This document shows positions 47,402-62,995 of a stretch of 64,000 bases of DNA, piece after piece (the first letter of the stretch is position 1; the number at the start of each line of letters is the position of its first letter). A program made the translations under genes and the position numbers. The stretch covers positions 1 through 64,000 of the forward strand of contig CALVWI010000013.1 of assembly GCA_944367045.1 (NCBI GenBank). The letters run 5' to 3'. The DNA comes from an uncultured Clostridia bacterium. Lineage in GTDB: Bacteria; Bacillota; Clostridia; Christensenellales; Borkfalkiaceae. Below the pieces are notes generated by a model. It searched no databases. It had not been told where the DNA came from and saw only the letters and a program-made list of their open reading frames with translations.

Positions 47402-47728
47402 TTATGCGTTGCCTTCCCCGCGTTCGAGGATGGATAAGAGGGCGGTGCGCTGCTCGTCGGGGAGCGTCTTTGCAAACTCCACAAGGGCCTCGTGCTCCCT
47501 TGTGCGCTTTGAAAGGAGAGCGGAGAGGTGCAGCGCCGCCTCGTATTGAAGAAGTTTTGTGCGGACCGACGCGAGGGTATCGGAAATGCTCTGCCGCGAG
47601 CAGCCCTTCTCCTCGGCGATCTCCTGAAGGGAGAGGTCGTAGTTATAGTAGAGCGTGGCGACTTCCCGCTTGTTCTCGGTGAGAAGTGCGCCGTAGACGT
47701 CGATGAGCCGTGAGATGGTAAGGTCCAT
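47402..47728 (-). CDS. ylxM: YlxM/p13 family helix-turn-helix protein
   Basis: YlxM is a small DNA-binding-fold protein that stimulates Ffh-FtsY in some species. The 108-residue product has MDLTISRLIDVYGALLTENK and the helix-turn-helix LSLQEIAEEKGCSRQSISDT. ATG 47728 follows GGGAGG. It is immediately upstream of ffh, its conserved place. Confidence 0.93.
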   Translation of the reverse strand: MDLTISRLIDVYGALLTENKREVATLYYNYDLSLQEIAEEKGCSRQSISDTLASVRTKLLQYEAALHLSALLSKRTREHEALVEFAKTLPDEQRTALLSILERGEGNA

Positions 47729-47750
47729 ATGCGCCCTCCCGATATGCCGC

Positions 47751-47779
47751 ATTATAGCAGATGCGACCGCTACTGTCAA
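47751..47779 (-). promoter_or_regulatory. ylxM-ffh promoter
   Basis: TTGACA (47774-47779), 17 bp, TATAAT (47751-47756) on the minus strand. The -35 is part of a 9-bp inverted repeat at 47773-47796 (CTGTCAAGT and ACTTGACAG). Confidence 0.85.
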
Positions 47780-47909
47780 GTGTTTTTACTTGACAGAAGG
47801 GTTTCGCGAAAATCTTTTTTCGTTCCGAAAAAATCTTTCCGCGAGGGGTGGGGTTAATTCATATCACAGCTTTATCGCCCGCGCACTTATTTGTACTCAA
47901 AGACAATAA

Positions 47910-48009
47910 GCCTCAGGTATGAGGCAAATTGGGTGCCGCACCGCAGGGCAACCCTGCTCGCGGCAGTAGATTTAAAAAAGAACGCCCGTCAGTCAGACAG
48001 GCGTTTTCA
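47910..48009 (+). ncRNA. structured RNA element, copy A (unrecognised family)
   Basis: On the plus strand there are three parts in order. P1 is GCCTCA-GGTA-TGAGGC (47910-47925). A linker AAATTGGG follows. A two-part hairpin then pairs TGCCGC with GCGGCA outside (47934-47939 and 47960-47965) and GCAGGG with CCCTGC inside, separated by ACC and TC. It ends at a hairpin AACGCC/GGCGTT (47981-48005) plus TTTTC. Copy B on the minus strand repeats the same plan with different bases in the stems. The promoter is not obvious. Confidence 0.72.
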
Positions 48010-48072
48010 TTTTAATTGCGCGAGCAAAATCACACTTTTGCGCTGCGCACCCCAATTTGCGCATACCTGCGC
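47972..48072 (-). ncRNA. structured RNA element, copy B (unrecognised family)
   Basis: On the minus strand P1 is GCGCA-GGTA-TGCGC (48059-48072), then AAATTGGGG. The outer stem TGCGC/GCGCA carries an inner stem GCAAAA/TTTTGC, with AGC and TC at the junctions, as in copy A (ACC and TC). It ends at the shared hairpin, followed here by CTTTTTT. It is preceded by a 10-bp hairpin TGCGGGCGCA/TGCGCCCGCA (48091-48132). Confidence 0.72.
47981..48005. terminator. bidirectional terminator shared by the two RNA elements
   Basis: AACGCC and GGCGTT pair with an inner GTC/GAC stem around AGTCA. TTTTC follows on the plus strand and CTTTTTT on the minus strand. Confidence 0.75.
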
Positions 48073-48090
48073 TTCTGGGGGAAAAGTGAA

Positions 48091-48276
48091 TGCGGGCGCA
48101 GTAAATTCGAAAGCCCCGAAAGTGCGCCCGCAGATGAAAAACGAGCCGCAGTCTTGTCGCGGCGGTGTTTTTCTCAAAATCACGGCAAAGATTTTTGGTC
48201 TCAAACGGCGCAAGGGAAACGCCGTTTTCGGTCACCGCTCGCGCGGGGAGAATGCGCTCGCTCATCTCGCAAGGGG
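48091..48276. other. hairpin-rich intergenic stretch
   Basis: Besides the 10-bp hairpin at 48091-48132, there are terminator-like hairpins on the plus strand. One is GCCGC/GCGGC near 48144-48165, followed by GTTTTTC. The other is AAACGGCG/CGCCGTTT at 48203-48227, followed by TTC. Open frames here are Arg-rich and lack ribosome binding sites. The region may belong to the RNA elements' 5' portion. Confidence 0.45.
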
Positions 48277-48299
48277 AAAACAGCACACCGTGCTGTTTT
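48277..48299 (-). terminator. ftsY terminator
   Basis: AAAACAGCAC and GTGCTGTTTT form a 10-bp stem with a 3-nt loop. T's lie at both ends, so it can act on either strand. Confidence 0.82.
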
Positions 48300-48346
48300 A
48301 AGAACTCCCTTGCTCGTCCTTTGCAAAAAGATTTGCGTGAACTATA

Positions 48347-49243
48347 TTATACAAATCCCTCTACAAACTGCTCGGCGTCGAAGGGGACGAGGTCGTCGAT
48401 CTTTTCGCCGACGCCCGTAAAGACGACGGGAATATTCAATTCGCTGCACAGCGAGAACACGAAGCCGCCCTTCGCGGTGCCGTCCAATTTCGTGAGGACG
48501 ATGCCGTCCAGCTCCACCGCCTCGTCAAACACGCGCGCCTGCGAGACGGCGTTCTGCCCTGTCGTCGCGTCGAGGACCAAAAACTTGAGAAACTGCGCCT
48601 CGGGCCACTCGCGCGTCACGACGCGGTCCATCTTCTGAAGCTCCTTCATCAGGTTCTCCTTGACGTGCAGCCGCCCCGCCGTGTCGACGAGGACGACGTC
48701 CGTCTTGCGCGCCTTCGCCGACGAGACCGCGTCGAAGATGACCGCCGAGGGGTCGCTCCCCTCCTCGTGCTTGACGATGCGCACATTTGCGCGCTCCGCC
48801 CAGACGGTGAGCTGCTCGCCCGCCGCCGCACGGAAGGTGTCCGCCGCCGCCACGGTGACGCTCTTCTTCTCCTTGACGAAGTAGTTGGCGACCTTGCCGA
48901 TGGTCGTCGTCTTGCCGACGCCGTTGACGCCCACAAACATGATGACGACGGGATATTTAAATTCGGGCACGGGGGCCTCCTCGAGCTTCTCCTCGAGGAT
49001 GTCCTTCAGAAGGTCGGTGACGAATTGCTCGTCCTTCACTTTGTTGCCGATGGCCTCCTCCTTGACTTCCTCGATGATCTCCTCGGCGGTGCGCACGGAG
49101 ACATCGGCGGAGATGAGGATCTCCTCAAGCTCGTCGTAGAACTCGTCGCCCAGCTTATTTTTGGCAAACAGAAGGCGCAATTTGTGCGAGACGCCCTCCC
49201 TGGTCTTTTTGAGTGCGTCCTTGATCTTTCCGAATAAACTCAT
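48347..49243 (-). CDS. ftsY: SRP receptor FtsY
   Basis: FtsY is the membrane receptor GTPase for SRP. The 298-residue NG-domain protein has GVNGVGKTTTIGKVANYF, DTAGRLHVKENL and TKLDGTAKGGFVFSLCSEL. It lacks the long acidic N-terminal region of E. coli FtsY, as in other Bacillota. It follows smc by 12 nt in the plsX-rnc-smc-ftsY operon. Confidence 0.97.
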   Translation of the reverse strand: MSLFGKIKDALKKTREGVSHKLRLLFAKNKLGDEFYDELEEILISADVSVRTAEEIIEEVKEEAIGNKVKDEQFVTDLLKDILEEKLEEAPVPEFKYPVVIMFVGVNGVGKTTTIGKVANYFVKEKKSVTVAAADTFRAAAGEQLTVWAERANVRIVKHEEGSDPSAVIFDAVSSAKARKTDVVLVDTAGRLHVKENLMKELQKMDRVVTREWPEAQFLKFLVLDATTGQNAVSQARVFDEAVELDGIVLTKLDGTAKGGFVFSLCSELNIPVVFTGVGEKIDDLVPFDAEQFVEGFV

Positions 49244-62734: not shown

Positions 62735-62995
62735 TCTAAAAATAAAACCGCGTCTCTTAAGGTTAAGAGACGCGGAATACGCGCGGTACCACTCTTATTG
62801 CGGGGAAGACCCCGCCGCTTGACGGATACTTTCATATCCTCTCCCTGTAACGGGGGACGCCGTTCCGCCTTACTCTCTGTTCGGGCGGACCGCTCGGCGG
62901 TGAGTTCGCCTCTACCCCTCTGCCGCCTCGCACCGAACGGCGGCTCTCTGAAAGCAGGAAAGAAAGGTTACTGCTCCGCGTCATTGCGTTATCTT
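62735..62995 (-). promoter_or_regulatory. T-box riboswitch upstream of leuA
   Basis: The leader has the T-box sequence AGAGTGGTACCGCG (complement at 62782-62795). A Stem I region has GAACTCACC with specifier CTC for leucine. The terminator CCGCGTCTCTTAA paired with TTAAGAGACGCGG (62748-62775) is followed by TTTTATTTTT. Uncharged leucyl-tRNA should switch on leuA. Confidence 0.93.

Follow-up and report, generated by a model that had tools for sequence, protein, structure and literature searches.

The gap between ftsY and ylxM in the window analysed here, a 64,000-nt stretch from an uncultured Clostridia bacterium of the Borkfalkiaceae, contains two convergent copies of a hairpin-rich feature, and the question that it raises is whether these are copies of an RNA selected for its structure or parts of something else. 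The first-pass annotation had described an anatomy common to copy A (47910–47965, plus strand) and copy B (48072–48017, minus strand). This was borne out by the sequence, and direct reading found the stems to have been given correctly in both copies; the observation is therefore confirmed, whilst its interpretation as a selected RNA structure is only partly supported. The view of the locus as that of a two-copy RNA, with a duplication remnant argued against, found no support: A and B each form the 3′ portion of a larger repeat (A 47801–47979, B 48342–48008), the two being convergent and of a dispersed, lineage-restricted kind, and the feature that they share is probably the 3′ half of a non-coding mobile repeat, here named E. 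In what follows, G000 is the genome of this window, other G-numbers are related genomes, C-numbers are contigs and L-numbers are fetched loci.

Elements A and B together occupy the gap from the ftsY stop to the ylxM promoter (47779–47751, minus strand), which matches the consensus at 12 of 12 positions. Element A (47801–47979, plus strand) lies between this promoter and element B and was recognized from its sequence as a whole repeat copy of a subtype without clear H2 and H3, on the same plan as the 165-nt tandem unit of the relative G071. Its hairpin H1 (TTTCGCGAAAATCTTTTTTCG/CGAAAAAATCTTTCCGCGA; 47802–47844, plus strand), the 5′ end of which was placed from relatives, corresponds to inverted repeat I4 and is 84 % complementary. 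The 3′ part of A comprises, all on the plus strand, hairpin H4 (GCCTCA-GGTA-TGAGGC, with a GGTA loop; 47910–47925), the linker AAATTGGG (47926–47933), which falls in conserved alignment columns, and the two-part hairpin H5 (47934–47965), supported by sequence and alignments; a match of 69.5 bits to the covariance model R1 (see below) spans 47908–47977. In H5 of A the outer stem TGCCGC/GCGGCA encloses the tip GCAGGG-CAA-CCCTGC, the layout being TGCCGC (47934–47939), ACC, GCAGGG (47943–47948), CAA, CCCTGC (47952–47957), TC and GCGGCA (47960–47965).

Element B (48008–48342, minus strand), delimited from its sequence, from BLAST matches within G000 and by comparison with other copies, is a whole repeat copy with hairpins H1 to H5 and an inserted module, M. 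This module (~120 nt; 48197–48319, plus strand) belongs to a second dispersed hairpin family, is 91–97 % identical to 12 other places in G000 and sits in the tip of H1. The core of H2 (48145–48163, minus strand) was found by the terminator scan as a stem of six pairs, and H3 (TGCGGGCGCA/TGCGCCCGCA; 48091–48132, minus strand) corresponds to inverted repeat I15, with 10 of 10 positions complementary. They are followed, again on the minus strand, by H4 (GCGCA-GGTA-TGCGC, with a GGTA loop; 48059–48072), the linker AAATTGGGG in conserved alignment columns (48050–48058) and H5 (48017–48049), likewise supported by sequence and alignments; R1 matched 48004–48075 with 81.5 bits, including H4. In H5 of B the outer stem is TGCGC/GCGCA and the tip GCAAAA-GTGTGA-TTTTGC, laid out on the minus strand as TGCGC (48049–48045), AGC, GCAAAA (48041–48036), GTGTGA, TTTTGC (48029–48024), TC and GCGCA (48021–48017). 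Inverted repeats I1 and I2 were recovered by a mechanical inverted-repeat search.

A terminator-like hairpin (47981–48005) lies where A and B meet at their 3′ ends, the place at which a bidirectional terminator had been proposed. The hairpin is present, but the consensus terminator scan called it on the minus strand only, and the plus-strand reading contains a C-A mismatch. Similar hairpins come after several other copies in G000. H5 itself was rejected as a terminator, because the scan called the hairpin at 47981–48005 and, on the minus strand, H4 of A and H2 of B, and never H5. On the other side of element A, at 47751–47800, the ylxM–ffh promoter (minus strand) overlaps an inverted repeat, CTGTCAAGT..ACTTGACAG, which is kept, with changes, in the relatives compared at ftsY–ylxM and looks like an operator.

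In relatives E was found as a complete unit with the five hairpins H1–H5, and its size was 165–200 nt, or about 335 nt with module M. There the 5′ start reads GTTCACG or TTAACG and opens H1. H2 is, by inspection, of the GAGGGGC..GCCCCTC type, H3 has a conserved loop on a stem of, in most copies, 10 bp, and after it come a conserved TTCACCC, H4 with its GGTA loop, the linker, H5, which has a variable, swappable tip besides an internal loop, and an A+T-rich 3′ end. Five units stand in tandem in G071, their starts 165 nt apart. Module M, of which 21 distinct copies were seen across two or more genera, has conserved unpaired stretches of its own; the copies at the 12 places in G000 cover all or most of it. 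Its positions were the tip of H1, behind H1, or between H2 and H3, one copy in G236 lies inside H2, and three tandem copies occur at C6:95558–95927. The E copies at C11:16148, C9:13742 and C16:16493 have no M, and H1 is closed at that point. By inspection, E is often followed by yet another family of repeats, whose hairpins read CTCCCT..GGGAG or CCTCCCC..GGGGAGG (L146, L147, L149 and the flanks of the G236 copies).

The abundance of E was determined by several searches. The exact motif of the GGTA hairpin plus linker matched eight times in G000, against none for the reversed control pattern, and the segment 47760–48350 gave 87 BLAST matches within that genome. R1 (72 positions, 17 pairs) was built from 34 copies, alignment A3, which took in 34 of 36 non-redundant copies (the two left out were L048 and a truncated copy in L097). 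It identified 47 copies in G000 among the best 48 matches; 47 of the 48 hits in the fetched G000 stretches had E ≤ 1.1e-9 and the 48th had an E of 0.17. Homologues with conserved pairing, which the first-pass annotation had proposed to seek with such a model, are abundant. R1 matched 91 of 101 sampled congeners, with none in the other 10 and a range from 0 to at least 48 per genome. Matches were obtained in 74 of 201 genomes of the family (6 of 18 genera), in 21 of 297 genomes of the order, where the three that belong to other families gave one or two weak matches each (best E 2e-5 to 8e-4), and in 8 of 341 genomes of the class, where four lay outside the order with one weak match each; these many-genome searches used stricter filters, at which weak matches are lost. 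A motif search gave 64 stretches in named records, several of them from Candidatus Coproplasma, and the carriers that could be named include four Candidatus Coproplasma species together with Clostridia MAGs. E is of high copy number, dispersed and restricted to a lineage.

The claim that A and B belong to no known family is supported as far as Rfam 15 goes, in which their plan had no match. A riboswitch or another known RNA was rejected on this ground: no Rfam 15 family rose above its gathering cut-off, and the three hits in 47700–48360 (E up to 10) were at chance level and far below it. The sole match in the window was a T-box leader away from A and B (62763–62993, minus strand, 142 bits). 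A phage origin was also rejected, since viral contigs, the set searched for this purpose, gave no match to one exact E motif. No description of E was found among the matches listed in the literature searched, the scope of which excluded subscription papers and preprints.

Covariation of the stems, which had been seen between two copies, was confirmed across the copies of the alignments. In A3, doubly changed cells numbered 117 against a shuffled mean of 36.9 (reached by 0 of 500 shuffles), and 81.7 % of cells were paired, against 39.1–45.5 % when partners were slid by one to three columns. The corresponding counts were 259 against 84.6 in A5 and 159 against 52.6 in A4 (0 of 500 shuffles in each), both of these alignments having been fitted to R1 and leaning towards the model. 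The number of further pair types was less telling, being reached by 99, 8 and 91 of 500 shuffles in A3, A5 and A4, respectively. As a check outside R1, the arms of H1 and H3 were compared in 57 distinct copies, those near a stretch end or repeated having been dropped, with at least eight Watson–Crick pairs as the criterion. Own arms paired in 52 of 57 copies for H3, against 30 of 285 swapped arms, and in 33 of 57 for H1, against 22 of 285; under the same rule H5 gave 11 of 57 against 9 of 285. Among the H3 arms 30 different 8-mers were counted, of which a few are probably spurious. Stems compensated across copies, as sought in a selected structured RNA, were found for H1, H3, H4 and H5.

Such covariation was by itself insufficient here for the step from covarying stems to a selected RNA, given that G-U pairs are nearly absent from the well-defined stems and that tips differ two-sidedly between similar copies. 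Stems defined by the strict rule contained no G-U in 567 pairs of H3, none in 556 pairs of H1 and one in 439 pairs of H5. The strict rule itself disfavours G-U, and the count was therefore repeated with G-U allowed and with A-C allowed as its mirror, which gave 64 G-U against 67 A-C in H1, 9 against 37 in H3 and 89 against 34 in H5, that is, an excess of G-U in H5 and none in H1 or H3. In the inner H5 helix of 171 distinct copies (18 rows were dropped), 1008 of 1016 pairs were Watson–Crick, five were G-U and three A-C; a tRNA control from the same stretches, of only 10 genes, had 23 G-U among 222 pairs. T-G occupied 18 cells of one outer H5 pair, and H4 of six G000 copies contained a G-U (GCGTA/TGCGC).

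Copies in the same genome that were at least 80 % identical outside the tip differed in their H5 tip pairs two-sidedly 146 times and one-sidedly nine times, a comparison of 156 copy pairs that are not independent and come nearly all from G000 and G236. Within the G071 array the tip changes as a block between units (GAAGAA/TTCTTC versus GCAAAA/TTTTGC). Tips also reassort with H4 and the outer stem: sets showing all four combinations numbered one for the outer stem and 22 for H4 in G000, and four for the outer stem in relatives. The tip GCAGGG/CCCTGC is common to G000 (genus g1) and G236 (genus g8), and GCAAAA/TTTTGC to G000 and G272 (genus g8). Stepwise compensation selected in RNA should leave both G-U and one-sided states behind, and the rarity of both suggests copying at the DNA level.

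The placement of E was examined within and between genomes. Copies occur in both orientations and in tandem and nested arrangements, and G236 has six near-identical elements at unrelated sites. The gap between FtsY and YlxM, measurable in 22 of 30 fetched loci, is 610 nt in G000 compared with 74–94 nt in G039, G092, G097 and G004, where little besides the ylxM promoter is left. G028 and G050 have gaps of 483 and 573 nt without an R1 match, so other sequences also lengthen this gap. At queA–tgt, 30 best-match loci and 20 picked for short or long spacers were compared (four genomes occurring twice and three being unmeasurable). In G236 the spacer is 409 nt, with E beginning a few bases behind the queA stop, and it was at most 17 nt in 12 of the 43 measured genomes, some of which had been chosen for short spacers. 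R1 found E in one of these 50 stretches, and many other spacers open, by inspection, with a different repeated sequence; spacer length at both loci is a matter of more than E alone. At the 3′ ends of queA in L218 and L221, and at the end of the gene upstream of the array in L187, inspection found other repeats followed by a second copy of the last ~18–39 nt of the gene, as if insertion or duplication had restored the gene end.

It was considered whether E is a functional structured RNA, such as a 3′-UTR element, a terminator companion or a small RNA, selected in the transcript and copied to many genes because it is useful. Such a role would agree with covariation alongside the conserved unpaired GGTA and AAATTGGG, with the RNA fold z-scores of element A (−3.98) and of the element B region (48008–48344; −5.61), and with placement in relatives. 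Among 66 usable copies of 82 there (those near a stretch end or repeated were dropped, and genes were called by a simple longest-ORF rule), the upstream gene was in the sense orientation in 35, and the 5′ end of E lay within about 15 nt of its stop codon in 22 of these 35; divergent starts were equally close in 6 of 31, and at the 3′ end of E equally close convergent stops and starts numbered 3 of 29 and 3 of 35. An RNA role could be the cause of this preference in relatives, but it is weak in G000, where repeats are nested and sense stops lay near the 5′ end in 5 of 28 cases (44 of 48 copies counted). Divergent upstream neighbours, at 31 against 35, were almost as common as sense ones, congeners have anything from no copy to 48 or more, spacers are short in some relatives, and the strict H1 and H3 stems and the inner H5 helix nearly lack G-U. 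On this evidence we regard selection as an RNA as unlikely to be the explanation for E, and the conserved loops and linker, with the sense position at stops in relatives, may leave room for an RNA function.

The mode of movement was sought in the ends of E and in four transposase or polymerase families (Y1_Tnp, RVT_1, TnpB and IS110). With inferred exact ends, target-site matches of at least 6 nt were seen in 6 of 50 copies against 4.2 by shuffling, and their mean length was slightly above that of the shuffles, 9 of 300 of which reached it. Terminal inverted repeats were not found in 49 copies, where the longest shared word averaged 5.16 compared with 5.06 for shuffled partners and reached 8 or more in one copy. 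A chain of perfect hairpins that lacks terminal inverted repeats and clear target duplication would fit single-strand transposition, as of a REP/REPIN-like or IS200/IS605-derived element moved as folded ssDNA, the Y1 (HUH) transposase responsible having since been lost or having diverged too far. Y1_Tnp, however, was detected in 24 of 101 congeners and not found in G000, median copy numbers with and without it were 15 and 19 (P=0.51), 25 genomes with at least 30 copies lacked it against six that had it, and the TnpB zinc domain was present in 3 of 101 congeners (over the cut-off in one) and not found in G000; an origin of this kind appears improbable. Less probable still, and by some distance, is an RNA-mediated, SINE-like retroelement copied in trans by a reverse transcriptase. 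The unit is structured and transcript-like, it stands in sense orientation at gene ends in relatives, and a polymerase that switches templates could account for tip exchange, but RVT_1, detected in 23 of the 101 congeners and not found in G000, was not associated with copy number (medians 21 and 17, P=0.69). The IS110 domain occurred in 4 of 101 genomes, including a partial match in G000 (C4:100950–101084), on a contig that carries several E copies. A cognate IS110 recombinase or TnpB nuclease, as a bridge RNA or omega RNA reading of E would call for in the genomes that carry the repeat, was not found there beyond these few domains. All four families were rejected as the driver, since each turned up in less than half of the genus as sampled and copy number did not vary with Y1_Tnp or RVT_1. 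A gene missing from G000 is not proven absent, the genome being 93 % complete. Against mobility itself it may be held that movement is read from comparison, with no clear target duplication, no terminal inverted repeats and no partner enzyme among the four families sought.

Known small repeats provided a further comparison. REP palindromes are extragenic and clustered, and some REPs are RAYT-associated, which links them to Y1 transposases. E shares with REP/BIME and REPIN sequences, palindromic repeats outside genes and in clusters (PMC3733652), both of these properties, but differs from REP and REPIN in being a hairpin chain of about 200 nt and from RAYT-associated REPs in that no Y1 transposase was found in G000 and none was associated with copy number in the genus. 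MITEs such as Bcr1, ERIC and NEMIS are described as non-coding, strongly folding sequences of 70–300 bp beside coding sequences (PMC3733652, PMC10969869), all features in which E is like them, its size class included. Terminal inverted repeats and target duplication are given as MITE features in PMC3049150, PMC10969869 and PMC3733652; in E the former were not found in 49 copies, and the latter had no clear case in 50. With neither the terminal inverted repeats that mark MITEs nor the Y1 association of REPs that go with RAYT, E was not assigned to a named family. The BOX element of Streptococcus pneumoniae (with RUP and SPRITE) is presented in PMC3049150 as a small interspersed, non-coding, modular repeat of stem-loops; compared by description, BOX and E are alike in their stem-loop modules, which vary in number, and in that copies cluster and insert into one another. 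E differs from BOX in its restriction to one clostridial family apart from weak hits, in its lack of terminal inverted repeats and in its two-sided tip differences. By analogy, E would resemble BOX and other small interspersed repeats in its working.

The reading that we favour, as the likeliest though by no means a certain one, is that E is a mobile, non-coding, BOX/MITE-like hairpin mosaic, in which pairing is kept largely by copying at the DNA level; it is suggested by the signs of such copying together with the dispersal of the copies. Its spread would proceed through events resembling transposition, with a putative enzyme probably acting in trans. The arms would stay complementary mainly through events in the DNA: during replication the template would be switched inside a hairpin, a process that can make and keep perfect hairpins according to a published account (PMC8794818), and conversion of whole hairpin tips between copies would help to keep the arms complementary. 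Recognition of the folded strand as the element moves, or else a host factor, might keep the loops and linker conserved. E in relatives tends to adjoin the stop of a sense upstream gene, and copies are therefore probably co-transcribed as structured 3′ UTRs, so that mRNA ends may be affected as a side effect.

A bolder form of the mobile-mosaic reading, put forward as a tentative possibility that we consider rather doubtful, is that E and M represent mobile bacterial DNA made of exchangeable hairpin cassettes. Tips would be swapped whole between copies, a second element would lodge at hairpin tips and junctions, each arm would be recopied from the other, which would keep pairing perfect with no passage through G-U, and a putative enzyme reading the folded strand would move the whole. 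A functional RNA is usually proved by covariation. If the cassette reading is true, repeat families can come to covary strongly with no selection acting on an RNA. E is a large natural family with seemingly two-sided, cassette-like stem changes and almost no G-U intermediates, which makes it a test case for RNA selection versus DNA-level hairpin copying, and it points to a putative mobilizing enzyme. At the two loci examined, E accounts for part of the swollen intergenic DNA of a poorly known clostridial family.
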